Source: a virus
Length of the DNA: 22,442 nucleotides
Reading direction: 5' to 3' (one strand)
Virus record (IMG/VR): IMGVR_UViG_3300002145_000150
Coordinates: 1 to 22,442 of that record
Shown here in pieces: positions 4,192 through 19,459 of the stretch. Under the pieces are notes generated by a model. That model did no database searches. It was not told where the DNA came from and saw nothing but the letters and a program-made list of their open reading frames with translations. Made by a program: the position numbers and the translations under genes. Position 1 is the stretch's first letter. Every line of letters starts with the position of its first letter.

Positions 4192-4539
4192 ATGAATTTG
4201 TGGTTCCGTCTTGCCAGCCACTTACACATGCCGCTCCGCGATTGCATGGAGCGGCATACTCACCGGGAGTTTTTAGCCTGGAATGAGTGGCTTGATGATC
4301 AATGGAATCAGCCGACGCGTTCGGATCACTATCTCATGCAGATCGCTCAGGAGGTTCGGCGGTCATTTGCAAAGAAGTGTCCGAAGTTCTCAGCCTTCAA
4401 GATTCCGTTCCAGACTCCAAAGCCAGCAAAGCCTGTCTCCCCGGAAACGATCGCTCAACGAGCAGCCATCGCAAAGGCGATTTGGAGCCAGCGACTCGGT
4501 AGAAAGGTAGAGACAGATGGCGAAGGAAACGGAACTTGA
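4192..4539 (+). CDS. Tail assembly chaperone, frameshifted extension (T part of gpGT-like)
   Basis: The frame encodes 115 aa from the ATG, but most likely it is made as the C-terminal 121 residues of a 257-aa G-T fusion (3767-4174 then 4174-4539 in the -1 frame). It contains WFRLASHLHMPLRDCMERH, close to the 'LAxxLGxpldxle..mt..Ef..W..' opening common in T-type extensions and their equivalents, followed by FLAWNEWLDDQWNQ. A basic, Pro-rich helical tail follows. An AAAGG lies before the ATG, so limited independent initiation cannot be excluded. It overlaps the tape measure start by 23 bases. Confidence 0.75.
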   Translation: MNLWFRLASHLHMPLRDCMERHTHREFLAWNEWLDDQWNQPTRSDHYLMQIAQEVRRSFAKKCPKFSAFKIPFQTPKPAKPVSPETIAQRAAIAKAIWSQRLGRKVETDGEGNGT

Positions 4540-7500
4540 GCGACTGGTGATTCGGCTCGTTGGTGATGGATCGTCTTACCAGAAGATGCTCCAGACGGCT
4601 GAAGCAACAACGGCATCAGCGGTCAAATCTATTGCCGAACAAACGCGATCGATCGGCAACAAGTTGTCATTATTCGTGACAGCTCCGCTTGTGGCGATCG
4701 CCGCATCTGCCCGCTCACAGGTCAGCGAGTATAAATCAGCACTGAGTCAGATGGTTGGTCTTGTCGGACTCTCTGAGCAAACCGTAGAAGGCTTCTCGAA
4801 AGACATTCAGCGGATCGCGATTGAGACCGGGAAAGCGCCCGTTGAACTGGCAAACGCGATGTTCTTCATCACGTCCGCAGGGCTTCGCGGAGCTGCCGCA
4901 GTAGAGGCTCTGGGGGTTTCGGCGAAAGCAGCATCGGCAGGTCTGGGCGGGACGCAGTCAGTCGCTGATGCGGTGACGTCAGCAATGAATGCTTACGGGC
5001 ACTCTAATCTCTCGGCGACTCGTGCGACTGAACTGCTGACTGCTGCCGTACGCGCTGGTAAAGCGGAAGCGTCGCAGTTTGCGCCGCAACTTGGCCAATT
5101 GCTCCCACTGACGTCCTCAATGGGCATTGGGTTTGATCAGGTCGCTGGATCATTGGCGTTTCTCACGAAGACAACTGGTAACGCGTCGCTCGCGGCCACT
5201 GGACTCAAGGGTGTCCTCAACGTTCTTGTTGGCGGATCGAAAGAGTCGATCAAGAACTTCGAGAAGATGGGATTCTCGTTGAATGACATCCAGGAAATGG
5301 CACGAAAGCAAGGGCTGCCGAAGACTCTGATGACCATTAGAAAGGCAGCGGAAAAGGCCGGTCTTCGCCTCAATGAGCTATTCACGGATACAGAGGGTTT
5401 GACGGCTGCGTTGCAATTCACTGGGGCAGCCGCTGCTGACGCTCAGCAAGTGTTTAATGACGTCGCGAATTCAGCCGGTATCGTTGACGAGGCGTTCACT
5501 GCCGCCGCTAATACCACGAAATTCCAGTGGGCAAAAGCGATGGCTGAGTTCCAGGTCATCCTCATTCAAATCGGTGAGATTCTCGTTCCGTTGAGCACTG
5601 GAATGCTGGACTTGGCTGATATCGGTCTGGCGACATGGCGAGGTCTTTCGGCAGAAGGCAGGAAGTTCATCGTCATCGCAGGAGCGATCGCGGCTTCTAT
5701 TGGGCCGACACTGATTGTGTTGTCCAGGCTGCCAATGGTCCTCGGGTTAGTAAAAAGCGGATTCCTTGTTCTGATTTCTCCAGCCGCACGATTAGTGAAC
5801 GCATTCATCACGATTGGTTCGGCTGTCACGACCGGAGTGCTTCGTACCGGGCAATCTATTTTCGGATGGTCCAGATTCGTTGGGCAATCGTTTTTCACGG
5901 TCACTCAACAGGCAGTAAAGATGAGTGCCGGAGTGATAGTAGCCGTCGCGAGTCTTGGAGCCAGATTACGTGGCCAGTTTAGCGGACTGTCATTTGGAGA
6001 CATCTGGACGAGCGGAATTGTCAAAGCAAAGCTCTGGCAAACTCAAGTGACCAGTATTGTTCAGTCCGTCATCGGAACGAGCAAGAAGTTTGGTGCTGAG
6101 GCAGGCTATTGGCTCCGGCGTCCGTACGATTATCTCGTGGCTGTTGCTCCGGGACTTGTTCAGCGAGTGGTGTCAATCACCACATTGGCCGCCGATAAGA
6201 TAAAACTCGCGTGGTTGAAGGTTTCTGGTGTTGGCATTTCTGCCGGACAGGCAATTCAGTCCCGCTGGGCGCAATCCTCTGCGGCAATCGCATCAATCAG
6301 TAAGAACACGTGGCAATCGGTCACTTCTACTGTGATGCGGGCGACACAACGAATTAGCGGTGCATCGGCACGACTCAGTCAACCTGCGTTGAGTGCGTTT
6401 TCAAGCCTTGCAACTAAATCACAGGTGATCTTTTCTGGCATCTGGTCTCGATTGAGCCCACCCATTGCAAACATCAAACAGAGAATGAGTCCGGTCGTTG
6501 CACTCTTCAGTCAAGACGCTCAGCGGATTGCGAGGGGGTTTCAGATCGCGGCGACAACAATCGCTCCGGCATTTTCCGCTGCTGGGAAGCTCGCATCACG
6601 TGCTGTGATGGTATCAATGAATGCGGCATTCACTGCGGTGAAGGTCGGTGCGAAAAGTGCTGGCACAGCTATTCGATCAATGGGCGGCGGGCTTATGCGA
6701 ATCGTTGATGCAATTGGAACGCTCAGCATGGTGCTGGCGTCCGCTGGCATGGCTACGGGGTTTCTTGGGACATTGGCCACGATCGCACCGATTCTTCTCG
6801 CTGTTGTTCCAGTCGTCTCAATTGTCGGAGCGGCGTTCGCCGCAGTGATGAGTCCGGTCGGACTGATCATCGCCGGTGTATCAGCGATCGGCCTGATCAT
6901 TGCAAAACTCGTGAGCAACGTAGACCTGTCCACAATGTGGACGCGAGGTCAGGAGTCAATCAACGAGTACGTTGCCGTCGTGTCTGGCTTCTTTGCGAAC
7001 TTCGAAGCCAACATGAAGATGCTCTACGCTTGGACAAGCAATCTTTGGACATCATTTGAATCGTCCGCAATCGCAGTGTGGAATGGAGTGTCTGGATTCA
7101 TCGGCAACTCAATTAGCGTGATCCTGTCATACCTTGCGGAACTCAGCCCGAATCTGATTGGACTATGGGATAGCGTCACAATCGGAGCTTCCGAATCATG
7201 GACATACGCACTGGAAATGGTGAAGTGGTTCTTTAGTTCCGCCGTTGGATTCTTCGGGAACTTCTCACAGAACATGCAGATTCTGTGGCAATTCATGACG
7301 GCGAACTGGCGCACGGTGCTGGCTGATATCGGAAACATGATCAAACTCACTGCTCAAAACATGGGCAGCAATTTCGGTGTTGGGGTGTCAATTGCTTACC
7401 GCTTGTTCCTCGCATTTGGCGGATGGCTGAAAGGACTGTTGAAGGGCGTTTTAGTCAAAATTTTCAGTGTGGACATGCTGAACGCTGCCGTTTCTGGACT

Positions 7501-8455
7501 CAAGAAACTTGTCGCCGTGTTCACTGACATGGGCAGTGGTTTCTACGAACTATTCAAGGGGTTCTTCACTGGTGCAACGGACGGCCTTGACCTGAACAAA
7601 ATGCTTGACAACGCAGTCAAGGATATTGATGCCGGGGCTGCGAGCATTAACTTCGCAGACACTGCCGCAAAGATCATCAGTGAAGAATCAGCGAATCTAA
7701 AGAGCCCACTGGACGGGTTTACGTCACAGCTCACGAAGCTGCCTGAATTCAATCTTGAAATGGGCGACGGATTAGCACTCCCTAAATTCATCACAAAACA
7801 GGTTGATGAAGCGAGTAAAGTTGCAGAAGACGCCAGTGCTGGCATTGGTGAGGCCATCCCGAAGGGCATTGGTGATGCTGCTAATGCCGTCGATGATGCT
7901 ACGAAATCCGTTAAAAAGTTTGGTGACATCAACGCGAAGGCCACTATCGGCGTGACCGGAGTTCAGGGGGTTGCGCGTGGCACATCGGAAGCACTCTCGC
8001 ACATTCAGGAATACTTGCTCGGTGCAAAATCACCAGCACCGACACTCCCCGGAGCACCGGCAATACCAGGCAGCCCGGTGACAGTAGGTGACCTGAAGAA
8101 AACGGACGCGGCACTTCGCATTGCGGAAAGAACGCCTGACATCAGCCATCTGATTCCGCAAGAGCGAGTCGCAGCAACGACGAACCTGACGCAGTTGCGA
8201 AGTATAGAACGCTCTTTCGCACTGACGGACCTGACGCCGGTCAAGGAGGAATATGGCAACGCGAGACAAACGGCGGACCTGACGGCGCTCCGGGAATCAA
8301 TCCAGATTGACCCGACGTTCGACATCAATGCCGGAGCCACTGAGACAAACGCTGAAGAGACAGCCGAACGCCTTGACCGATTGATTGAGGTCAGCGAGAT
8401 GCAGCTTGAAGTCGCGAAATCTAAGGGCGGATTGATACTGGCAGGACTGGAATAA
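4517..8455 (+). CDS. Tape measure protein
   Basis: At 1312 aa this is by far the longest protein, sitting right after the chaperones. Residues about 20-330 match the TP901-type tape measure core: a coiled helix (SSYQKMLQTAEATTASAVKS), ALSQMVGLVGLSEQTVEGF, then ELANAMFFITSAGLRG, and the ATGLKGVLNVLVGG segment. Hydrophobic stretches near residues 382-420 and 738-800 are the membrane-active type common in tape measures, which help DNA cross the host membrane. The C-terminal 250 residues are polar and acidic. It sets tail length; at about 0.15 nm per residue this implies a tail near 0.2 micrometre (inference). Its TAA overlaps the next ATG. Confidence 0.9.
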   Translation: MAKETELERLVIRLVGDGSSYQKMLQTAEATTASAVKSIAEQTRSIGNKLSLFVTAPLVAIAASARSQVSEYKSALSQMVGLVGLSEQTVEGFSKDIQRIAIETGKAPVELANAMFFITSAGLRGAAAVEALGVSAKAASAGLGGTQSVADAVTSAMNAYGHSNLSATRATELLTAAVRAGKAEASQFAPQLGQLLPLTSSMGIGFDQVAGSLAFLTKTTGNASLAATGLKGVLNVLVGGSKESIKNFEKMGFSLNDIQEMARKQGLPKTLMTIRKAAEKAGLRLNELFTDTEGLTAALQFTGAAAADAQQVFNDVANSAGIVDEAFTAAANTTKFQWAKAMAEFQVILIQIGEILVPLSTGMLDLADIGLATWRGLSAEGRKFIVIAGAIAASIGPTLIVLSRLPMVLGLVKSGFLVLISPAARLVNAFITIGSAVTTGVLRTGQSIFGWSRFVGQSFFTVTQQAVKMSAGVIVAVASLGARLRGQFSGLSFGDIWTSGIVKAKLWQTQVTSIVQSVIGTSKKFGAEAGYWLRRPYDYLVAVAPGLVQRVVSITTLAADKIKLAWLKVSGVGISAGQAIQSRWAQSSAAIASISKNTWQSVTSTVMRATQRISGASARLSQPALSAFSSLATKSQVIFSGIWSRLSPPIANIKQRMSPVVALFSQDAQRIARGFQIAATTIAPAFSAAGKLASRAVMVSMNAAFTAVKVGAKSAGTAIRSMGGGLMRIVDAIGTLSMVLASAGMATGFLGTLATIAPILLAVVPVVSIVGAAFAAVMSPVGLIIAGVSAIGLIIAKLVSNVDLSTMWTRGQESINEYVAVVSGFFANFEANMKMLYAWTSNLWTSFESSAIAVWNGVSGFIGNSISVILSYLAELSPNLIGLWDSVTIGASESWTYALEMVKWFFSSAVGFFGNFSQNMQILWQFMTANWRTVLADIGNMIKLTAQNMGSNFGVGVSIAYRLFLAFGGWLKGLLKGVLVKIFSVDMLNAAVSGLKKLVAVFTDMGSGFYELFKGFFTGATDGLDLNKMLDNAVKDIDAGAASINFADTAAKIISEESANLKSPLDGFTSQLTKLPEFNLEMGDGLALPKFITKQVDEASKVAEDASAGIGEAIPKGIGDAANAVDDATKSVKKFGDINAKATIGVTGVQGVARGTSEALSHIQEYLLGAKSPAPTLPGAPAIPGSPVTVGDLKKTDAALRIAERTPDISHLIPQERVAATTNLTQLRSIERSFALTDLTPVKEEYGNARQTADLTALRESIQIDPTFDINAGATETNAEETAERLDRLIEVSEMQLEVAKSKGGLILAGLE

Positions 8456-10616: not shown

Positions 10617-11972
10617 GTGTTACTAACAAGACCAAAAGCACAGTGTTCATGCGGGGAATGCTACGAACGAGTTACTGGATGCAGTGCGTGCTCTGGTTGC
10701 ATTCCGGCAACAATGTGCGTCACGCTGCGAACCAACGAGCAGTGCTGTCCATTCTCGACCGGGATATATCACCTCAATGGAACTCGCTGGCTCTCAGAAT
10801 CTGAGATAAGTTGGTGCGGCGGCATTGTTGATCTGAAAATCCTCTTAGAAGAAGTCGGTGACTCATGCTATTTTGTTGTGCGTGTTCGTTACGTGGACAG
10901 TGACGATTATGTCACACTTGCATATGAAGAGTTAGGAACGACCGACTTCTCAGTTGATTTGTCGGAGTCCGAGTACGAGCTGGAAACAACACTTCGAGTG
11001 TTTCCGAAATCAGGCGTTCTGAATCCTAACATCTACACGGATTGCGGCACATGTCTCGATAGCTGCACGTGCCTGCCATACACTCTTTGCCTCACTTATG
11101 TGACCGAGGGAGATTGCATTCCATCACGTTTTCGTAAACCAACGTCATGGAACGGATGCAATGGATGGGACACAGTTGTCTTCGCGTTCAGCAAGTTGGA
11201 CGGGACGGTTGAGCGACGTGAGGTTACTATCGCGCTTGGCGAGCCGCCGTTATGCGGGCTTGAAATCCGCGTAACAAAAGATGACTACGACGATACTGTC
11301 TTCACATATCCACTGCTGAATCCACAGAAGGCTTGCAAAGTCGATTTCTTCGAAGTCATTCAAAACAATCCGGACATTCTCGGGTTGGAGACTTTGAAGA
11401 TCACCGCAGATTGTTTGTGTCTTGATTTGCCAGACGAAGAGTGTCCGCTGGCATGCCCGCAAGTGCATGATCTGTGTGAGTTGGAACCTGTCATCGCCTC
11501 ATTTATGGTTGATGGATGTGACATATTAGACGGCGTGTCAAGAACGAATGACCCATTCGGTCCGCCGACACTCGATGATGCACCAGGATATACGCGATGT
11601 CCATCGCAAGTATGGGAATGGGATTTCACCGTAGAGGTGATTTGCGAATCCGGGTTCGGTGCGGTCAGTGGTCTGCCATATGAAATACGTGGCGACTATG
11701 TCATACACATGCGGCTATATTACCCATTGTTATCTTGTGAAGATGTTGATGTCAATGATTTAACACCAGACCCGACACGATACATTCTAGTTTGGGAAAT
11801 CGCGGCTAATTCATGTGGCACAACATGGACAGGGTTTGACTTTCCTGACCCGGCGACAGCAAATTGCTCCCCGTTTTTTCTGGAGTTCGAAATCACACCC
11901 AGTGGGGAAGATCAGCCGTCCTGTTATGGGTTGTGTTGTCAGGATACGGTTCGAGTTAGGATTACCCAATGA
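10617..11972 (+). CDS. Cysteine-rich tail fibre-like protein with duplicated module
   Basis: Start is GTG at 10617, right after the previous TAA, with GGGG upstream. The 451-aa product has about 34 cysteines (over 7 percent). A module is duplicated: C28-IPATM-C34-VTLRTNEQ-C43 and C152-LPYTL-C158-LTYVTEGD-C167 have identical cysteine spacing (6 and 9), and both are followed by about 80 residues with a CYFVVRVRYVDSDDY / CGLEIRVTKDDYDD segment. A third, diverged Cys region begins near residue 266 (CLCLDLPDEECPLAC). There is no signal peptide. The last gene before the sugar-enzyme cassette and last in the tail block, it is probably a fibre or tip protein stabilised by disulfides or metal; that is inference. 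Its base composition is lower in GC than its upstream neighbours. Confidence 0.6.
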   Translation: MLLTRPKAQCSCGECYERVTGCSACSGCIPATMCVTLRTNEQCCPFSTGIYHLNGTRWLSESEISWCGGIVDLKILLEEVGDSCYFVVRVRYVDSDDYVTLAYEELGTTDFSVDLSESEYELETTLRVFPKSGVLNPNIYTDCGTCLDSCTCLPYTLCLTYVTEGDCIPSRFRKPTSWNGCNGWDTVVFAFSKLDGTVERREVTIALGEPPLCGLEIRVTKDDYDDTVFTYPLLNPQKACKVDFFEVIQNNPDILGLETLKITADCLCLDLPDEECPLACPQVHDLCELEPVIASFMVDGCDILDGVSRTNDPFGPPTLDDAPGYTRCPSQVWEWDFTVEVICESGFGAVSGLPYEIRGDYVIHMRLYYPLLSCEDVDVNDLTPDPTRYILVWEIAANSCGTTWTGFDFPDPATANCSPFFLEFEITPSGEDQPSCYGLCCQDTVRVRITQ

Positions 11973-13375
11973 CATTGCAAACATTTGAGTGCAACTGCCC
12001 GTTAGGAAGAACCGTTATATGCGAAAGGCATGGAGTCGTTAAATCGTCGCGTGAGGTGCAAATTTGCCAAGGCAAAAACGTTAAGGATGAGGTTCGTGAG
12101 CAATGGCTAAAGCAATGGGGTGAAATCCCTGATTCTGTCGAAACACAGCCAATTGTTCGATCAGAGAAACAATTGCAGCCGCGACAGAATTATGCTTTTA
12201 GTGCATTGACGCCAACGGATATTCCTTGTGAGTTCCGTGGTGACGTTATTCGTGAGGCACCGTGTACCGTGTGTGGTTCACGTAACAAAAAAACATCAAT
12301 TTACAAGTGCGATGATCCAGCGAATTCAACGGGCGAATGCACTTTCGTGCATAAGATTCACGGAATGAGATCATGCCAACGGTGCCCAATAGGGCAAGGG
12401 GCCTATGAACGGTTGATGGATACGATCGCGGTGAAGAAAGAGACACTGCGAACATCTGGGCGTGGCGGTATAAAATTTAGCGGAAAACGAGGCGGCCCCT
12501 TCAATCCGAGTGAGGAAAAGCCGAAGTTCATCTCACGCCGCCAACTCGCAGACGACATCCTGCTCCTTGCTCAGCGAATTCCGTCTAATACATCACGAAT
12601 CATCGGCGTTGCGAGGTCTGGCGTGCCAGTGGCGGCGCAGGTAGCTCTGTATCTGCATCTACCGCTGACGATCTTTCGTCAGAGCACGTACGACATGATC
12701 GAAGCCGGCAATGGTTGGCGGCTGACCGGCAATACGGGTGGAGACGGGCCGCCTGTCGTCATCGACGATACGTGCATGAGCGGCAACTCCTTCAAATTCG
12801 TCATGCCGGTTGTGAAGAAAGAATTCCCGGATGCCGTCTCAGCGTGTCTCTACTGCAATCCGGCGGCCAGGGTGAAGCCGGACATGTGGATTCACGATCT
12901 TCCGTGGCCGCATTTCCTTGAATGGAACATGTTCAACTCGGTGATGACTGACAGCCTTGCCATAGACTTCGATGGAATTCTGTGCCGAGATTGCTACCCT
13001 GGCGAGGATGACGACGGGGAGAGGTACTTGAACTTCATTCGTACGGCGACGCCGCTCTATCCGATCCGAAAAACGAAGGTAAAGCTGGTTGTCACCGCGC
13101 GGCTGGAGAAGTACCGGAAAGAAACAGAAGGCTGGCTGAAACGGAACGGAATCGCGGTCCAACAACTCGTCATGGCACCGTATCAAACGCTGCGAGAACG
13201 GCAGCAGCACGACATGGCAAAGTTCAAAGCCAAGCATTACACGCAGTTTCTCCAGCAAAATCATCGAGTAAAGCCGCCATGTTTCGTTGAGTCTGACCCG
13301 CATCAGGCTCGTCGCATTCACGAACTGACGCGGGGGATCGTTATCTGTCCTGGAACGGGGGAATGTCATGCTTGA
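11969..13375 (+). CDS. Fusion: Cys modules + phosphoribosyltransferase + HAD-type phosphatase
   Basis: The product is 468 aa, from an ATGA overlap. Residues 1-50 hold a small Cys module (CPLGRTVICERHG); residues 87-139 a second one with CTVCG, an ECTF segment and CQRC, probably zinc-binding. Residues about 190-325 are a type I PRTase: IIGVARSGVPVAAQVAL and the PRPP loop PVVIDDTCMSGNS (262-274). Residues about 329-460 look HAD-like: AIDFDGILC (331-339, nucleophile Asp333 and Asp335), LVVTARLEKY (motif II Thr), a Lys-rich segment near 418-422, and FVESDPHQA (439-447). A PRTase makes or cleaves a nucleotide-type N-glycosidic bond with PRPP, and a HAD partner can dephosphorylate the product; the substrate is unknown. 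GC content rises sharply near base 12480, close to the domain junction. Confidence 0.75.
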   Translation: MTLQTFECNCPLGRTVICERHGVVKSSREVQICQGKNVKDEVREQWLKQWGEIPDSVETQPIVRSEKQLQPRQNYAFSALTPTDIPCEFRGDVIREAPCTVCGSRNKKTSIYKCDDPANSTGECTFVHKIHGMRSCQRCPIGQGAYERLMDTIAVKKETLRTSGRGGIKFSGKRGGPFNPSEEKPKFISRRQLADDILLLAQRIPSNTSRIIGVARSGVPVAAQVALYLHLPLTIFRQSTYDMIEAGNGWRLTGNTGGDGPPVVIDDTCMSGNSFKFVMPVVKKEFPDAVSACLYCNPAARVKPDMWIHDLPWPHFLEWNMFNSVMTDSLAIDFDGILCRDCYPGEDDDGERYLNFIRTATPLYPIRKTKVKLVVTARLEKYRKETEGWLKRNGIAVQQLVMAPYQTLRERQQHDMAKFKAKHYTQFLQQNHRVKPPCFVESDPHQARRIHELTRGIVICPGTGECHA

Positions 13376-13931
13376 TCGTCAGAAAGCTGTCGAAAGCTGT
13401 TATCTCATACCCGGCTGGTGTTGGCCGGTCGAACTTGGTGCGATCTATGACACGATCGCCGAAAGGAAACCACAGACTCACGTTGAAGTCGGGAGCTTCT
13501 GCGGACGGAGTTTGTTTGCGGCGGCAGCAGCGATGCCTGATAAAGGACAGCTGATTGCCATTGAGCCTTTTATCTACTGGGATAATTTACAGAACCATTT
13601 GCTGGGTCTGAACTGGTGGAAGCAGGTATTTAACACGACGCTCAACAGCATCCGAAGCCACCGTCCAGACCTGGAAATCGTGCATTTGGAATTGCCATCG
13701 ATCAAAGCGGCTTTAGAAGTAAGACAAGCTGACTCCGTCTATATCGATGCCTGCCACGAGTATGCTGAGGTATCATCAGACATTCAGGAGTGGGGGGCAG
13801 TGGTCGGCAATGGGCTTCTCTGGGGGCATGATTACTGTGCGAGCCAGATGGGAGTCCTCGACGCCGTCAACATGTCACTGCCAGGAGATTTCACAGTTCT
13901 GGATGGTACACGCATATGGGTTCGGAAATGA
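13368..13931 (+). CDS. Class I SAM-dependent methyltransferase
   Basis: The product is 187 aa and overlaps the preceding gene by eight bases, with a GGGGGA SD. Residues 38-48 (HVEVGSFCGRS) are the SAM-binding glycine motif in the 'EVGSxxGrS' form of the Methyltransf_24 type. LIAIEPF (62-68) holds the acidic ribose-binding position. DSVYIDACHEYAEVSSDI, then WGHDY, is the family's 'D.i.iDg.H.y..v..D...' strand. The substrate cannot be read from sequence; this family often methylates sugars or nucleotide-sugars, and neighbours here are sugar enzymes. Class and cofactor are fairly sure; target unknown. Confidence 0.75.
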   Translation: MLDRQKAVESCYLIPGWCWPVELGAIYDTIAERKPQTHVEVGSFCGRSLFAAAAAMPDKGQLIAIEPFIYWDNLQNHLLGLNWWKQVFNTTLNSIRSHRPDLEIVHLELPSIKAALEVRQADSVYIDACHEYAEVSSDIQEWGAVVGNGLLWGHDYCASQMGVLDAVNMSLPGDFTVLDGTRIWVRK

Positions 13932-14518
13932 AAGCGATCCTTGCCCTTAAAGGGCCGTCCGCGCATGCCGCATCTGACGTGATTAGCGATTTGAAGCCCG
14001 ATATCATTGCGACTGTCAACGATGCGATTTATCTTCTTGATAAAGACACAGCAGTTGACTACTCATTTTTTACTCATTGGGCGTCTTCATCAGAAGACCG
14101 TCGTCTTCACCCACATGCAAGCTGCCGAATCAAGACGTTTGTGACTCCCGAACTTTCAGCTACATTCCCGCACAACGATTGGGTCAAATCAGAAGGCCAC
14201 AAGTGGATTCGATATGAACACCACACCTGCGACGGCGACCCAGCCGCGTTATCCGCCCGCATATTTTGTGGCGGCATTACGCATCACCACACGGCGAGCG
14301 CCGCTGTCCACTGGTTGTGCAAGAATTTGTCGCTTGACTCGCTTTACGTTATCGGCCTTGATGGTGGCGACCTCAGCAACTATGCAACAGGTGTAAAGCC
14401 AGCGTGTCACAAAGACACGATGCCAGGCGACGTGCTTGATGTATTCCGGAGAGTCATGCTGGACCTGATACCAATCCTGAATCGTGTCTATGGGACAGAC
14501 ATAAAGGTCATAACATGA
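13928..14518 (+). CDS. Rossmannoid DUF115/MptE-like or sialyltransferase-like protein
   Basis: I take the ATG at 13928, which makes an ATGA overlap with the methyltransferase; an upstream ATG at 13916 would add four residues. From 13928 the product is 196 aa. It starts ILALKGPSAHAASDVISDLK, the 'l.GpSl' opening of DUF115-type proteins, then DIIATVNDAIYLL and YSFFTHWAS (the typical 'd.a.Nda...' arrangement). Near the middle ARIFCGGITHHHTASAAVHW, then DSLYVIGLDGGDLSNYA. Relatives include motility-associated and sialic-acid-type transferases, so a role in handling an activated nonulosonic-type sugar next to the cytidylyltransferase is plausible but not shown. Confidence 0.5.
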   Translation: MKAILALKGPSAHAASDVISDLKPDIIATVNDAIYLLDKDTAVDYSFFTHWASSSEDRRLHPHASCRIKTFVTPELSATFPHNDWVKSEGHKWIRYEHHTCDGDPAALSARIFCGGITHHHTASAAVHWLCKNLSLDSLYVIGLDGGDLSNYATGVKPACHKDTMPGDVLDVFRRVMLDLIPILNRVYGTDIKVIT

Positions 14519-15189
14519 AAGTGATCGTCCCTGCGAAGTCAACGAGCACGCGGGTAGCAAATAAAAACTGGCGACCGTTCTTCAATGGAAAGAATCTGGT
14601 TGCGCTTACGATTGAAAAGCTGCTGGCGGCTGGATTTGACAAAGGTGATATATACGTCAGCAGTGACTACGTCAGCGGACTTGATTCACTGCGATCGACA
14701 TACGGGACTCATTCACTATTCCGAAATGAAAGGTTGTGCGACAACGAGACGCCGCTTACTGAGTGGATACGGCACACGACAAGCCAGATTGATTTTTTTG
14801 ATGAAGTGGCATGGGCTCAAGTATGCGATCCACTCTTTGACGAATACAAAGAGGCAGTTGATTGCTGGAACAACCGTGTCGGACATTATGACAGTCTGTG
14901 CGTGATCTACCGCACAAAGCAATTTGCGTTGGACTCATACCGAAACCCGGTCGGGTGGCAATTCGGCGACTATCACAAGTCCAGTCAACACCTGCAATAC
15001 ACGTATCTGATGCCGTTCACGTTTTCTGTGTTGACGCGTCAGTCTTTGGAGCGTTGCCCATACCATATCGGAATGTCACCGCTTTGGTATGAAAGTGATC
15101 GCCATACAATCGACATTGACACTGAGGCAGATTTCGACTTCGCCATGTCGCTTTACGAAGTCATGCACTTGACAGGTAAGAAACAATGA
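14515..15189 (+). CDS. NeuA-like sugar cytidylyltransferase
   Basis: The product is 224 aa with an AAAGG SD and an ATGA overlap. The N-terminus IVPAKSTSTRVANKNWRPF follows the CMP-nonulosonate synthetase pattern IxPARxxSxRxxxKNxxP, then LTIEKLLAAGF and IYVSSDYVSGL. The C-terminus HTIDIDTEADFDFAMSLYE carries the classic 'iDIDtxxDlxxAe' ending (DID at 200-202) that binds metal. Such enzymes join a sugar acid to CTP, giving a CMP-sugar. 'AKSTSTR' in place of 'ARGGSKR' shows divergence from the housekeeping form. No nonulosonate synthase is in the window, so the sugar must come from the host or elsewhere in the genome. Confidence 0.75.
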   Translation: MKVIVPAKSTSTRVANKNWRPFFNGKNLVALTIEKLLAAGFDKGDIYVSSDYVSGLDSLRSTYGTHSLFRNERLCDNETPLTEWIRHTTSQIDFFDEVAWAQVCDPLFDEYKEAVDCWNNRVGHYDSLCVIYRTKQFALDSYRNPVGWQFGDYHKSSQHLQYTYLMPFTFSVLTRQSLERCPYHIGMSPLWYESDRHTIDIDTEADFDFAMSLYEVMHLTGKKQ

Positions 15190-16046
15190 TCTGGGCATAT
15201 GCCGTCACGACCTGCACGCAACGACTCTATACAACGTTTCCATACACTCTATCTGATCTGGCGATGGCTGGTTTCGATGAGCCACACGTGTCACTGGACA
15301 GCAACCAGCTATGCAGTCTTGAGCAAGTCGCCGGATGCAAGTCACTCACGACTCACTATCCGGCCCTCGGGGCGTTCGGCAACTGGTTTGCGACGCTCTG
15401 GGAACTCCGAGTCCGGAACCCGAAGGCGACGATGTTCGCCATTTTTCAGGATGACGTCATCGTCACGTATGGGCTGCGGGAGTATCTGGAGCGGAACCCA
15501 TGCCCAGACAACGGCTACATGAACCTGTTCACAGCACCTTCTAATCAGGACTTGTTCGGCAGTGCCGATGATGTGAACTGGAAGGAAGCCAGAACGCTCA
15601 CTGACGAGACTGATCTCCAGACCGGGCGAGGGGCTCTTGGCCTGGTGTTTTCGAAGGACGTCGTCGGGAAGTTGCTCGCGAGCCCGATCCTGACTGAGAA
15701 GCCGCTGACGGTCAGAAACCCAACGAAGAACATCGACGGGGCAGTTGTTCAGGCGTTGAACCGTGTCGGAGTTCGCGAGTACGTTCACCGCACAAGCCTG
15801 GTCCAGCACCGCGAAGGGGAAAGCACTGTCGGTCGATTAGTTCATCGACAGGCGACATCGTTCGAGCCGTATATCACCGGCCTGACTCACCGTGAAGAGG
15901 ATTCGCAAGCAACTGATCTGCCGGAGCAAGTAGATGAGACGCGACGAACTGAGGACAGTGCAGGAGATTTGCAGCCGGCACCCGAAGCCGACGATACCGC
16001 CGCTGGAATCACCGCCGTATACGCCGAAGAACAGCAGCCAGAGTAA
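15186..16046 (+). CDS. Glycosyltransferase, GT-A-like
   Basis: The product is 286 aa, ATGA overlap with an AGG SD. The sequence IWAYAVTTCTQRLYTTFPYT, then ATMFAIFQDDVIVTYGLREY (82-101), fits a GT-A fold with QDDV as the metal-binding acidic motif, a form seen in GT25-like and phage glycosyltransferases. A middle part has GYMNLFTAPSN and GRGALGLVFSKDVVGKLL. The last 60 residues are low-complexity, acidic and probably disordered, and the final 113 bases overlap the next gene in another frame. The donor could be the CMP- or NDP-sugar from the neighbouring enzymes; that is inference. Confidence 0.65.
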   Translation: MIWAYAVTTCTQRLYTTFPYTLSDLAMAGFDEPHVSLDSNQLCSLEQVAGCKSLTTHYPALGAFGNWFATLWELRVRNPKATMFAIFQDDVIVTYGLREYLERNPCPDNGYMNLFTAPSNQDLFGSADDVNWKEARTLTDETDLQTGRGALGLVFSKDVVGKLLASPILTEKPLTVRNPTKNIDGAVVQALNRVGVREYVHRTSLVQHREGESTVGRLVHRQATSFEPYITGLTHREEDSQATDLPEQVDETRRTEDSAGDLQPAPEADDTAAGITAVYAEEQQPE

Positions 16047-17004
16047 GCTCGGGCTCGCTGTCGAGTCGATGAAGTTTCATACGACTGACGAAGGCTGGCA
16101 GATTTTCGATGGACTGGAGTCAGCAGGCTACACGCTCTGCGGGCATGGGCTTCCGGAAGGCTCAACGTCAGTCCCCGACCTGCTCGCCAGATATTCACCG
16201 CAGACGCTCGTGCTGCAAGATAAACGTGAATGGGACGTGCAGCGTAAAGACTTCCGCGATGCGTCCGCTCGATTCACCGGTGTTGAAGCACTCCGTGAAC
16301 GCGACGACGTGTTCAAACTCACGATTCTGAAGGACTCACATCAGCGGCCAGAGTATCATCGTGACTCCGCACAAGAGATCGGCTGTCATGCCTGGATCGT
16401 CTACTATCACCCGACGATCGTTTCCCATCTGGCTCCTTACGTCCGGACTCAGCACCTCGTTCGAACGTACCACACGCTGAACCCTGCTCACGTTCCGGCA
16501 TACTCAATCGATCGGCTCGATCGGTGCCTGCTGTCAGGGGCAGTGTCCGGCGCGTATCCACTGCGGCAACGGATGGTCAACAACCTGCGAGCGTTCAAGA
16601 CGATCGACTATCAAAAGCATCCCGGTTACCACCGGCAAGGCTGCTGTACTCCGGAGTACCTCAAGATGCTCTCCAGGTATAAGGTGTCGTTCTGCACGGC
16701 GAGCCACTATGGCTATCTGCTGCGGAAGATCATTGAATCAGTCGCTTGCGGTTGCCGTGTGATCACAGACATGCCCGTCGATGAAGTCGTTCCTGAGATT
16801 GACGACAACCTGATCCGTATCAATCCGATGGATTCAATCCATGCGATTGAGGATCAGATTGCTTATGCGATCGTCGATTATGATCCAGAGCGACAAGAGC
16901 ACTTCGCAAAGCGAGCTATTGAACGATTCGACTATCGATTCGAAACGGCACGACTTGCGGGTGAAATTGAGAACCTTCGACTGATCTACACAGGGGACAA
17001 TTGA
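15934..17004 (+). CDS. Glycosyltransferase, GT-B type (group 1-like)
   Basis: The product is 356 aa from an ATG with a GGAG SD seven bases upstream; it overlaps the previous gene by 113 bases in a different frame. The alternative start (ATG 16069, residue 46) would lie after the previous stop but has no SD. Residues 1-38 are basic and Pro-rich. The N-terminal Rossmann half includes SPQTLVLQDKREWD. The C-terminal half holds YLKMLSRYKVSFCTASHYGY, then KIIESVACGCRVIT (265-278, the E-x7-type nucleotide-sugar motif) and DEVVPEIDDNLIRI, as in Glyco_trans_1_2 proteins. Donor and acceptor unknown. Confidence 0.7.
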   Translation: MRRDELRTVQEICSRHPKPTIPPLESPPYTPKNSSQSKLGLAVESMKFHTTDEGWQIFDGLESAGYTLCGHGLPEGSTSVPDLLARYSPQTLVLQDKREWDVQRKDFRDASARFTGVEALRERDDVFKLTILKDSHQRPEYHRDSAQEIGCHAWIVYYHPTIVSHLAPYVRTQHLVRTYHTLNPAHVPAYSIDRLDRCLLSGAVSGAYPLRQRMVNNLRAFKTIDYQKHPGYHRQGCCTPEYLKMLSRYKVSFCTASHYGYLLRKIIESVACGCRVITDMPVDEVVPEIDDNLIRINPMDSIHAIEDQIAYAIVDYDPERQEHFAKRAIERFDYRFETARLAGEIENLRLIYTGDN

Positions 17005-17589
17005 ATGAGGATTTTCGTCACGGGCACTGGCCGTTGTGGCACTTGCACGGCCTACCAGGCACTCAGCCACGCAAAGGGATTCACGGTAGGGCATGAGTCC
17101 CGCGCCGGTCTCTCAGAACATCACGAGTACCCGGACAACCACATCGAAGTTTCATCGCAGTTGGTGATGGAGATACCGCTCCTGCTCCGGAAGTATCCGG
17201 GGGCGTATTGGGTTCATCTGCAACGCGAACGAAAAGCGACCGTCAATTCTCTGATCATGAACTGCGAAGAGTCGATGGCCGCTTACTCGCTGCAATGGCT
17301 TCAGAGGCCAATTGCAGCGGTCGACGATGAAGACAGTGAACTCCGTGGCAGGCAGCTCCGGGCGGCTGCGTCGATCTACTATGACAACGTCAACGCGATG
17401 TTGTCGAAGATACTGCCATCGTTCCGGACCTATTATCTGCCGTTGGAGTATGTTGATGGTAAATGGGCCGACTGCTGGGAGTTCCTGCAACTGACAGGTG
17501 ACTTCGAAGCCAGCCAGCGGGAGTGGAGCAGGCAATACAACGCGGCGGAATTCCGAGGCCGTGACAACTACTCAGGAGCGAATCAATGA
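17005..17589 (+). CDS. Sulfotransferase-like P-loop protein
   Basis: The product is 194 aa with an AGGGG SD, starting right after the previous stop. FVTGTGRCGTCTAYQALS (4-21) is the 5'-phosphosulfate-binding loop of PAPS sulfotransferases (GxxRSGTT-like with Cys in place of Ser). YPGAYWVHLQRERKATVNSL fits the 3'-phosphate-binding strand 'hlvRdPrxxxxSl'. YYLPLEYVDGKWADCWEFLQ is the usual helix near the C-terminus in the short bacterial family. It would move sulfate from PAPS to a hydroxyl or amine, here possibly a glycan. The short length leaves little room for an acceptor domain. No PAPS-making genes are seen, so PAPS would be host-derived. Confidence 0.65.
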   Translation: MRIFVTGTGRCGTCTAYQALSHAKGFTVGHESRAGLSEHHEYPDNHIEVSSQLVMEIPLLLRKYPGAYWVHLQRERKATVNSLIMNCEESMAAYSLQWLQRPIAAVDDEDSELRGRQLRAAASIYYDNVNAMLSKILPSFRTYYLPLEYVDGKWADCWEFLQLTGDFEASQREWSRQYNAAEFRGRDNYSGANQ

Positions 17590-18626
17590 GAGAGCAGGAA
17601 GCGTTGCAGCAGATGGTGTCGCCGTCACAACGGCGAGCAGGCAAGCCGCGCGGCGGAGTGATTCAGATTCACCTGACTCGGGCGTGTGACTTGGCATGCT
17701 TTGGCTGCACTCAGGGGAGCAACCTGAGATGCCCGGCATCATTCATCTCATTGGAAAACTTCGAACTGGCTTGTAAGTCGCTTCGGAACTACTTCGGGGT
17801 GACGGGAATTTTTGGCGGAAATCCGAGTTTGCACCCTGAATTTCCGTCCATCTGTGAGATTCTCCGGAAGTACATCCCGAAGAACCGGACAGGCATCTGG
17901 TGCAACCATCCGCGCGGACATGGCAAGATCATGGCTCAGACTTTCGATCCGGGCTGCAGCAACTTGAACTGCCACCTGGTTCAGGAAGCATACGACGAGT
18001 TCAAGCGTGACTGGCCGGAGTCTCGACCGTTCGGGCTCGATAAGGACTCACGGCATTCGCCGCCGTACGTGGCGATGCAGGACGTGTTCCGAAAGGCGTG
18101 CAACGTCTGCAAAGGGACCGGCGATCTTCATGACGATGATGGTGAGTTGCAAAACTGCCCGTATTGCCGGGGAACTGGATCACGAGTAGACGATGAGGCG
18201 TGCTGGGAGAAAGCGGCCAACTGCGACATCAACAAACACTGGTCAGCGATGGTTTGCGAGATCAAAGGCGAACTCTACGGCTACTTCTGCGAGATCGCCG
18301 CAGCTCAGGCGATACTCCACCAGAACGACCCGGCATGGCCGATCACCGGAATTCCGGTAGCGACGAATCCGGACTGGTGGAAGCTTGGCATGAAAGACTT
18401 TGCGAACCAGGCTCGGCTTCACTGCTTCGCTTGCGGAGTCCCACTGCGAGGATATGGGGCTCTGGCACAAGGTGGCAGCGAGCAGAAGGAGCAGGTTTCA
18501 GTGACTCATGCTGACATCTACAAGCCAAAGAAGAAAGATCGGCTGGTTCAGATTGTGGCGGACATCAATGAGTTGGACTCGCACGATTTGAAATTCACCG
18601 AGTACCTGCAAGGGGCAGCGAAGTGA
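17586..18626 (+). CDS. Radical SAM enzyme with DnaJ-type zinc insert
   Basis: The product is 346 aa, ATGA overlap with a GGAG SD. The radical SAM cluster motif is C34-DLA-C38-FG-C41 (CX3CX2C) after IQIHLTRACDLACFGC. GIFGGNPSLHPEF (75-86) replaces the usual GGE SAM motif. Residues 172-198 carry two CxxCxGxG repeats (CNVCKGTG and CPYCRGTG), as in DnaJ zinc domains. A further cysteine set, C213, C224, C235 and C280-x2-C283, recalls SPASM-type auxiliary clusters. Radical SAM enzymes cleave SAM to a 5'-deoxyadenosyl radical for difficult C-H chemistry; here peptide, sugar or nucleoside substrates are all possible. It does not match a family I can name. Confidence 0.7.
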   Translation: MREQEALQQMVSPSQRRAGKPRGGVIQIHLTRACDLACFGCTQGSNLRCPASFISLENFELACKSLRNYFGVTGIFGGNPSLHPEFPSICEILRKYIPKNRTGIWCNHPRGHGKIMAQTFDPGCSNLNCHLVQEAYDEFKRDWPESRPFGLDKDSRHSPPYVAMQDVFRKACNVCKGTGDLHDDDGELQNCPYCRGTGSRVDDEACWEKAANCDINKHWSAMVCEIKGELYGYFCEIAAAQAILHQNDPAWPITGIPVATNPDWWKLGMKDFANQARLHCFACGVPLRGYGALAQGGSEQKEQVSVTHADIYKPKKKDRLVQIVADINELDSHDLKFTEYLQGAAK

Positions 18627-18650
18627 CGCTGGTCGGACCGAAGGGCTCAG

Positions 18651-18719
18651 GTGAATGCCGGAAGTTACGTGATCTTCAAGAATGAGCAATACGCTCGGCA
18701 GAGATTGCGACTGGACTAA
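18651..18719 (+). CDS. Possible 22-aa microprotein or read-through tail of the radical SAM gene
   Basis: GTG at 18651 has AAGGG upstream at good spacing, and the frame ends TAA at 18717-18719, two bases before the next ATG. The peptide begins VNAGSYVIFKNEQYARQRLR and looks protein-like. It lies in the same frame as the radical SAM ORF, whose stop is TGA followed by C, so the same residues could also be reached by stop-codon read-through. A chance ORF remains possible. Confidence 0.25.
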   Translation: MNAGSYVIFKNEQYARQRLRLD

Positions 18720-18721
18720 AT

Positions 18722-19459
18722 ATGCTCGATAATGCCGTCATTGTCTGCGTTGACTACTCGGACTTTCTGGCCGTCACGCTGCCATACAACCGGCACCACT
18801 TCAGCGAAGTGCATGTAGTGACGTCGATGACGGACAATGAGACGGAACAGGTCGCGAATGAGAACCTCGCCCATGTCTGGCAAACTGACCTGTTCTACGC
18901 TGACGGTGCCGACTTCAATAAGTGGCGAGCGTTAGAGTGGGCTCTGGACAGCATCGGTCGCGACGGCTGGCTATGCCTGATGGACGCCGACGTTTTATGG
19001 CCAAAGTCGATCCAGTATGACTTCGAACCTGGCAAGCTATATACCCCGATGCGGCGGATGTTCAAAGACCTCGCGAAGCCAATACCGCAGGAATCCGAAT
19101 GGTGCCGCTATCCGATCCATCGGAACGTCAATGAGTGGGCCGGGTACTCACAGATATTTCACGGATCTGATCACCACTTGCCAGCTCCACCGTGGCATGA
19201 GACCAACTGGAAGCACGCAGGCGGGGCTGACTCGTTCTTTCAGTTCCAATGGGAGCCGGCATCGAAAGTGCGTCCACCGTTCGAAGTGCTCCACCTGGGC
19301 GAGGATGGTGCGAACTGGTGCGGGCGAGTGACTCCGCGATTCGACGGCACGATTCCGGACGCGGCGGCTGAGCGACAGAGGAAGCTGAAGGGCTATTTCA
19401 CAGGACGCCGGAGTCATGCGGACCAGGCTAAGCGATTCGATCATGAGAAGCTGATGTGA
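18722..19459 (+). CDS. Glycosyltransferase, GT-A-like
   Basis: The product is 245 aa. It starts with a GT-A-like beta strand (AVIVCVDYSDFLAVTLPYNR), then VHVVTSMTDNET, and has WLCLMDADVLWP (83-94) with the DAD metal-binding motif typical of GT-A glycosyltransferases. Ahead of that, DFNKWRALEWAL resembles the 'fNKg.al..gl' helix of similar phage-encoded enzymes. HLGEDGANWCGR near the C-terminus may supply a second metal ligand. No SD is obvious. It ends the plus-strand cassette. Donor and acceptor are unknown. Confidence 0.65.
   Translation: MLDNAVIVCVDYSDFLAVTLPYNRHHFSEVHVVTSMTDNETEQVANENLAHVWQTDLFYADGADFNKWRALEWALDSIGRDGWLCLMDADVLWPKSIQYDFEPGKLYTPMRRMFKDLAKPIPQESEWCRYPIHRNVNEWAGYSQIFHGSDHHLPAPPWHETNWKHAGGADSFFQFQWEPASKVRPPFEVLHLGEDGANWCGRVTPRFDGTIPDAAAERQRKLKGYFTGRRSHADQAKRFDHEKLM

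Follow-up and report, generated by a model that had tools for sequence, protein, structure and literature searches.

The fusion gene and its neighbourhood

The stretch of DNA analysed here, referred to as the window, is a viral record of 22,442 bases from IMG/VR. It encodes a protein in which N-terminal Cys segments precede a type I phosphoribosyltransferase (PRTase) domain and a capless HAD phosphatase domain (Table 1). Along the window, a tape-measure gene (4517-8455) is followed by tail-side genes and then by a run of sugar-related genes. The fusion ORF begins within the stop of the ORF before it (ATGA) and its 3′ end overlaps the next ORF, which begins at 13368; the gene lies in a tightly packed row that is probably translationally coupled. 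The ORF directly upstream (10617-11972), which overlaps the fusion gene, encodes a very Cys-rich protein of 451 aa that belongs to no known family and is possibly a tail fibre and a candidate glycan acceptor. Within the downstream block, the 200-aa protein (13916-14518) adjoins the PseF-like CMP-sugar synthetase (14515-15189). The order of these two genes is kept in L013 and L015, and because the pair recurs there a CMP-sugar transferase is suggested. Further along the block, the radical SAM protein (17586-18626) carries an internal DnaJ-like CxxCxGxG zinc-finger insert.

Table 1. Features of the fusion gene and of the genes that follow it (window coordinates).
Feature	Position	Strand	Residues and remarks
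PRTase-HAD fusion ORF	11969-13375	+	ATG start, 468 aa, N-terminal Cys segments
Module A	12011-12127	+	aa 15-53; C..H......R..IC.G.....W..WG; low model confidence
Module B	12221-12397	+	aa 85-143; seven Cys
Type I PRTase domain	12515-12943	+	aa 183-325
GVARSG loop	12605-12622	+	PRTase domain
PRPP loop	12755-12790	+	residues 263-274; VVIDDTCMSGNS
Conserved EWN hood motif	about 12920-12928	+	PRTase domain
Capless HAD phosphatase domain	12950-13372	+	aa 328-468
HAD motif I	12965-12985	+	residues 333-339; DFDGILC
HAD motif II	13088-13117	+	residues 374-383; VVTARLEKYR
HAD motif III	13223-13240	+	K420
HAD motif IV	13283-13318	+	residues 439-450; FVESDPHQARRI
Methyltransf_24 protein	13368-13931	+	overlaps end of fusion gene
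Downstream glycan block	13916-19459	+	200-aa protein without family match, PseF-like CMP-sugar synthetase, 286-aa protein of no assigned function, GT-like, sulfotransferase-like, radical SAM, GT2-like

Domains, catalytic residues and Cys modules

The Pfam profile Pribosyltran (PF00156) matches residues 207-315 with an E value of 8.9e-8, above the curated cut-off. An AlphaFold2 model built on an alignment of 92 rows predicts PRTase and HAD folds for residues 183-468 with a pLDDT of about 97, whilst much of the N-terminus was modelled at low confidence. In the PRPP loop, D267 and G272 are invariant in all 92 aligned relatives and position 266 is Asp in 85 and Glu in 7; of the W-N pair at 319-320, W is kept in 90/92 rows and N in 86/92. 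The HAD residues D333, D335, R378, K420 and E441 are likewise invariant (92/92) and T376 is kept in 90/92. Because the PRPP loop and the HAD catalytic residues are conserved across these relatives, the motifs are not chance occurrences. Sequence matches of the HAD part to known families are weak, being to phage polynucleotide kinase families and a BT0820-type HAD phosphatase. HAD motifs I and II lie about 40-45 residues apart in all members where a pattern found both, a spacing too short for a cap domain; the AlphaFold2 model also has no cap. With its PRPP loop and predicted PRTase fold the protein is a type I phosphoribosyltransferase, and with all four motifs and a predicted Rossmannoid fold it is a HAD phosphatase. 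The first-pass annotation, which had described a PRTase, a HAD phosphatase and extra Cys modules within one protein, is borne out, and the catalytic Asp pair of the HAD part is present.

Structural comparison with VIA-align placed the PRTase domain closest to xanthine-guanine PRTases (Z 15-17), with which it shares the PRPP loop. The 6-oxopurine PRTases are defined by a purine-contacting Asp in the PRPP loop (DDxxD) and a purine-contacting Lys. However, the position aligned with this Asp (270, from the alignment with 1vdm) is Asp in only 1 of the 92 relatives, and that aligned with the Lys (297) is Lys in 3. Judged from this alignment, the fusion family is without the residues that define 6-oxopurine PRTases. 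It further differs from the xanthine-guanine enzymes in having a fused HAD domain and a glycan context.

The Cys residues of the N-terminus fall into two segments, the first comprising C8, C10, C18 and C33 and the second C87, C99, C102, C114, C124, C136 and C139. Module A also occurs on the PRTase-HAD proteins of L010, L013, L014 and L090 and on a GT2 glycosyltransferase in L091, although recurrence of the first segment is weaker than that of the second, comprising mainly C18/C33 and the W-G end. The Cys residues of module B are conserved in the viral relatives L010, L011 and L031, together with L016, a partial contig of the same kind as L011; six of the ten columns that are invariant across four relatives are Cys. 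The module was found in 3 of 199 genomes scanned from the planctomycete phylum. It lies at the N-terminus of a GT2 protein (L172, PF00535 at 1.7e-15) and of the GT-like proteins L170 and L171/L173, for which Pfam support is marginal, and is also present in a small ORF of 166 aa (L174). The first-pass annotation had associated such a module with glycosyltransferases and with a separate small protein, and both forms were recovered here. The L170 and L171 regions are prophages, since these genes lie downstream of tape-measure genes. Given that modules A and B recur on both kinds of enzyme, we conclude that the Cys modules travel between PRTase-HAD proteins and glycosyltransferases. We infer zinc binding from the spacing of the Cys residues alone, and on this ground module B is likely zinc ribbon-like. 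Modelled by itself, module B gave a pLDDT of 56 and no meaningful PDB match, and the N-terminal Cys region used as a search query returned a single, insignificant phage match.

Distribution and genomic context of the family

Searches of annotated phages returned no direct relatives at an E value of 0.01 and only weak PNK-type matches at 10, and a pattern scan with the single window protein gave no match. When plasmids were searched by tblastn with residues 183-468, however, full-length relatives of about 30% identity were recovered (E values down to 3e-28). Eight of these plasmid relatives were used to build a scan alignment, and only scans with this alignment found further members, both in viral contigs (at least 90 stretches) and in one-per-species genomes (at least 445), each in one scan. 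The relatives occur in Bacteroidota, Pseudomonadota, Planctomycetota, Balneolota, Verrucomicrobiota and Bacillota, as well as in a Treponema, a Synergistaceae MAG and a haloarchaeal MAG. Contrary to the rarity initially ascribed to it, the PRTase-HAD fusion is therefore widespread, and it is only the version with Cys modules that is restricted. The family is uncharacterised and annotated only as 'phosphoribosyltransferase'. The long extensions at the N-terminus of L017, L019 and L067, which appear to be artefacts of a wrong reading frame, were left out of the counts. In a tree of 151 rows, computed by a quick method and containing several long branches, the window groups with L090, L091, L010 and L011 (support 96). 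Its branch has 61 rows, of which 54 are viral and 7 derive from genome contigs of planctomycetes, and is for the most part separate from the branch of the bacterial polysaccharide members.

The PRTase-HAD gene is found in glycan biosynthesis loci. On annotated plasmids of Paracoccus, Rhodobacter and Bosea it lies among genes for LPS biosynthesis, glycosyltransferases, acyltransferases and nucleotide sugars, and plasmid relatives sit in LPS/EPS loci. The homologue on pMARC4 of Paracoccus marcusii had already been grouped with carbohydrate genes by the authors describing that plasmid (PMC3832669). In Rhizobium lentis, a glycosyltransferase gene lies two genes downstream of PRTase-HAD, beside a VgrG gene; the PRTase-HAD gene of this plasmid (L007, 7938-9257) is located between a caspase-family protein and the glycosyltransferase and VgrG of a type VI secretion locus. 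Amongst 112 neighbours at 21 genome loci, GT2 matches were found in 18 and GT1 matches in 15, and Wzy- and Wzx-type proteins were also present. Gene lengths and order around PRTase-HAD are nearly constant in most Flavobacteriia loci.

Among the neighbours of viral members are tape-measure proteins, Methyltransf_24 proteins (5/105 and 8/104) and members of the GT2, epimerase, CmcI/rhamnosyl O-methyltransferase, sulfotransferase and pyruvyltransferase families. Phage members often have a methyltransferase directly downstream, and in L010, L011, L012 and L090 this is a relative of the window methyltransferase. Moreover, the PRTase-HAD unit is itself fused to other enzymes, several of the fusions being known from single metagenomic contigs. 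These comprise GT2-PRT-HAD in a single frame of 649 aa (L104), PRT-HAD-GT4 (L077), methyltransferase-PRT-HAD (L070, L079 and L080) and a GT8-like domain with PRT-HAD (L055/L083, with L085 and L086 in the same length class), for which the GT8 match is weak. In Planctomycetaceae bin-253 (L093-L095), two PRT-HAD units stand in tandem in one protein.

A candidate glycan ribosyltransferase

We propose, with a probability of roughly 0.6, that the fusion protein works in two steps, as a PRPP-dependent glycan ribosyltransferase and 5′-phosphatase. The PRTase domain would transfer 5-phosphoribose from PRPP to a glycan hydroxyl with release of pyrophosphate, the acceptor being either a polysaccharide of host or phage or a glycan borne by phage tail proteins. 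The fused HAD domain would then take off the 5′-phosphate to leave a ribosyl residue, probably beta-ribofuranosyl. The coupled methyltransferase may O-methylate the ribosylated product, and the N-terminal Cys modules would serve as docking modules, probably zinc-bound, that are common to the glycosyltransferases of the phage. From the domain content, intact catalytic residues, predicted folds, glycan-locus context, fusions to glycosyltransferases and methyltransferases and shared Cys modules that were observed, we infer the reactions and their order, the acceptor, the anomer and the role of the modules. A glycan is favoured because of the polysaccharide loci, the fusions to glycosyltransferases and methyltransferases and the loss of the residues that define 6-oxopurine PRTases. 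Against it we count that the nearest phage genes are partly tail proteins without assigned function, that the capless, PNKP-like HAD domain is unlike the helical-capped PRP/CrpP domains, and that a sequence link to characterised gPRTs is absent from the 60 best profile matches to solved structures.

The known gPRT/PRP enzymes transfer a ribosyl unit from PRPP and then dephosphorylate it at the 5′ position; they include the polysaccharide ribofuranosyltransferases of Klebsiella O4 and O7, Bcs3 of H. influenzae type b and KrkA of E. coli K13 (PMC11127046, PMC10299916, PMC12887879). As in these enzymes, a PRPP-binding PRTase-type domain and a HAD phosphatase are united in one protein of the window family, in glycan biosynthesis loci and with fusions to other glycosyltransferases. 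However, both domains together span about 286 aa in the window family, compared with roughly 650 aa for residues 357-1013 of KrkA. Moreover, the window family has no helical cap, with 41-45 residues separating motifs I and II wherever this was measured, whereas CrpP of Bcs3 has one of 98 residues and a cap is stated for the known PRP domains; the window family also keeps both Asp residues of the DxD, of which CrpP conserves only the first. Domain order was dropped as a difference because the sources disagree, the numbering of Bcs3 placing the phosphatase first (PMC10299916) and the transferase being described as N-terminal elsewhere (PMC12887879). Neither Bcs3 nor the Thermobacillus ribofuranosyltransferase was among the fold-search matches listed. 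Owing to the capless HAD domain and the retention of both motif I Asp residues, we do not file the window protein as a gPRT/PRP member, though by analogy it probably works like one.

The first alternative is a nucleoside-like metabolite synthase, in which the PRTase domain would couple a base-like compound with PRPP and the product would be dephosphorylated by the HAD domain to a free riboside. The similarity of the PRTase fold to purine PRTases points this way, and PRTase-based nucleoside biosynthesis is known, for example for angustmycin (PMC8599513). We nonetheless consider it unlikely, and less probable than a glycan acceptor, since it leaves unexplained both the glycosyltransferases that are fused to and surround the relatives and the replacement of the Asp and Lys that recognise 6-oxopurines. 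PRTase and HAD proteins also occur together in Ter-linked gene sets, from which the first-pass annotation drew its analogy with nucleotide-like pathways. This analogy finds no support: the scanned window proteins include neither Ter genes nor a match to a Ter-type (PRTase_2-type) PRTase, polysaccharide loci and glycosyltransferase fusions characterise the relatives, and the base-recognition residues of 6-oxopurine PRTases are missing. Of the riboside-type product that had been suggested, we retain the dephosphorylated ribosyl product, but with a glycan, in light of the fusions and lost purine contacts, as a more likely acceptor than a base.

A lipid-linked ribose donor is slightly less probable again. 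Here, ribose-5-phosphate from PRPP would be placed on polyprenyl phosphate, the HAD domain would remove the 5′-phosphate and another glycosyltransferase would use the donor. Analogous chemistry involves the HAD-type PRP domain protein ORF15 (PMC11127046), and genes for lipid-carrier polymerisation are often present in the loci; however, the lipid-directed enzyme already known, a UbiA protein, is integral to the membrane, whereas the fusion has a predicted soluble type I PRTase fold. Nucleic-acid end processing, with the HAD domain as a 3′-phosphatase and the PRTase domain binding nucleotides, would fit the best HAD fold matches (T4 Pnkp 3′-phosphatase, Z 12.1, and Pnkp1, Z 11.9), the capless layout and motif spacing shared with them and the weak matches to phage polynucleotide kinase families, but is very improbable, as the HAD domain, whose partner here is a PRTase, is in every case accompanied by an intact PRPP loop, no kinase or ligase was found among the scanned window proteins, and a glycan context is seen again in different phyla.

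Ribosylation of glycans from PRPP is a recent finding and was established for one structural type, a PRTase with a capped HAD phosphatase. As a putative glycan ribosyltransferase, the PRTase-HAD family is a second candidate, very widely distributed and of far more compact build. Its confirmation would account for the ribose of many uncharacterised polysaccharides, turn the annotation 'phosphoribosyltransferase' into one that is testable in culturable hosts, and mean that phages bring their own ribosylation enzyme beside their tail genes. More tentatively, planctomycete (and other) phages might possess a PRPP-dependent ribosylation machine of their own, whose Cys docking modules are interchangeable and shared with the phage glycosyltransferases, and might use it to cover their tail proteins with ribose-containing, possibly O-methylated, glycans.

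Lastly, multiple copies of the family were observed within single replicons or genomes. Planctomycetes bacterium TBK1r (L099/L100) has three PRTase-HAD copies in its one genome, two of which lie in like-looking regions 44 kb apart. On a plasmid of Rhodobacter sp. CZR27 (L004, 7950-8924), a paralogue that adjoins both a glycosyltransferase and another copy of the family has partly lost the PRPP loop (IGDTAPDG) and has GGG in place of the RSG loop; judged by these residues, it is possibly inactive as a transferase.
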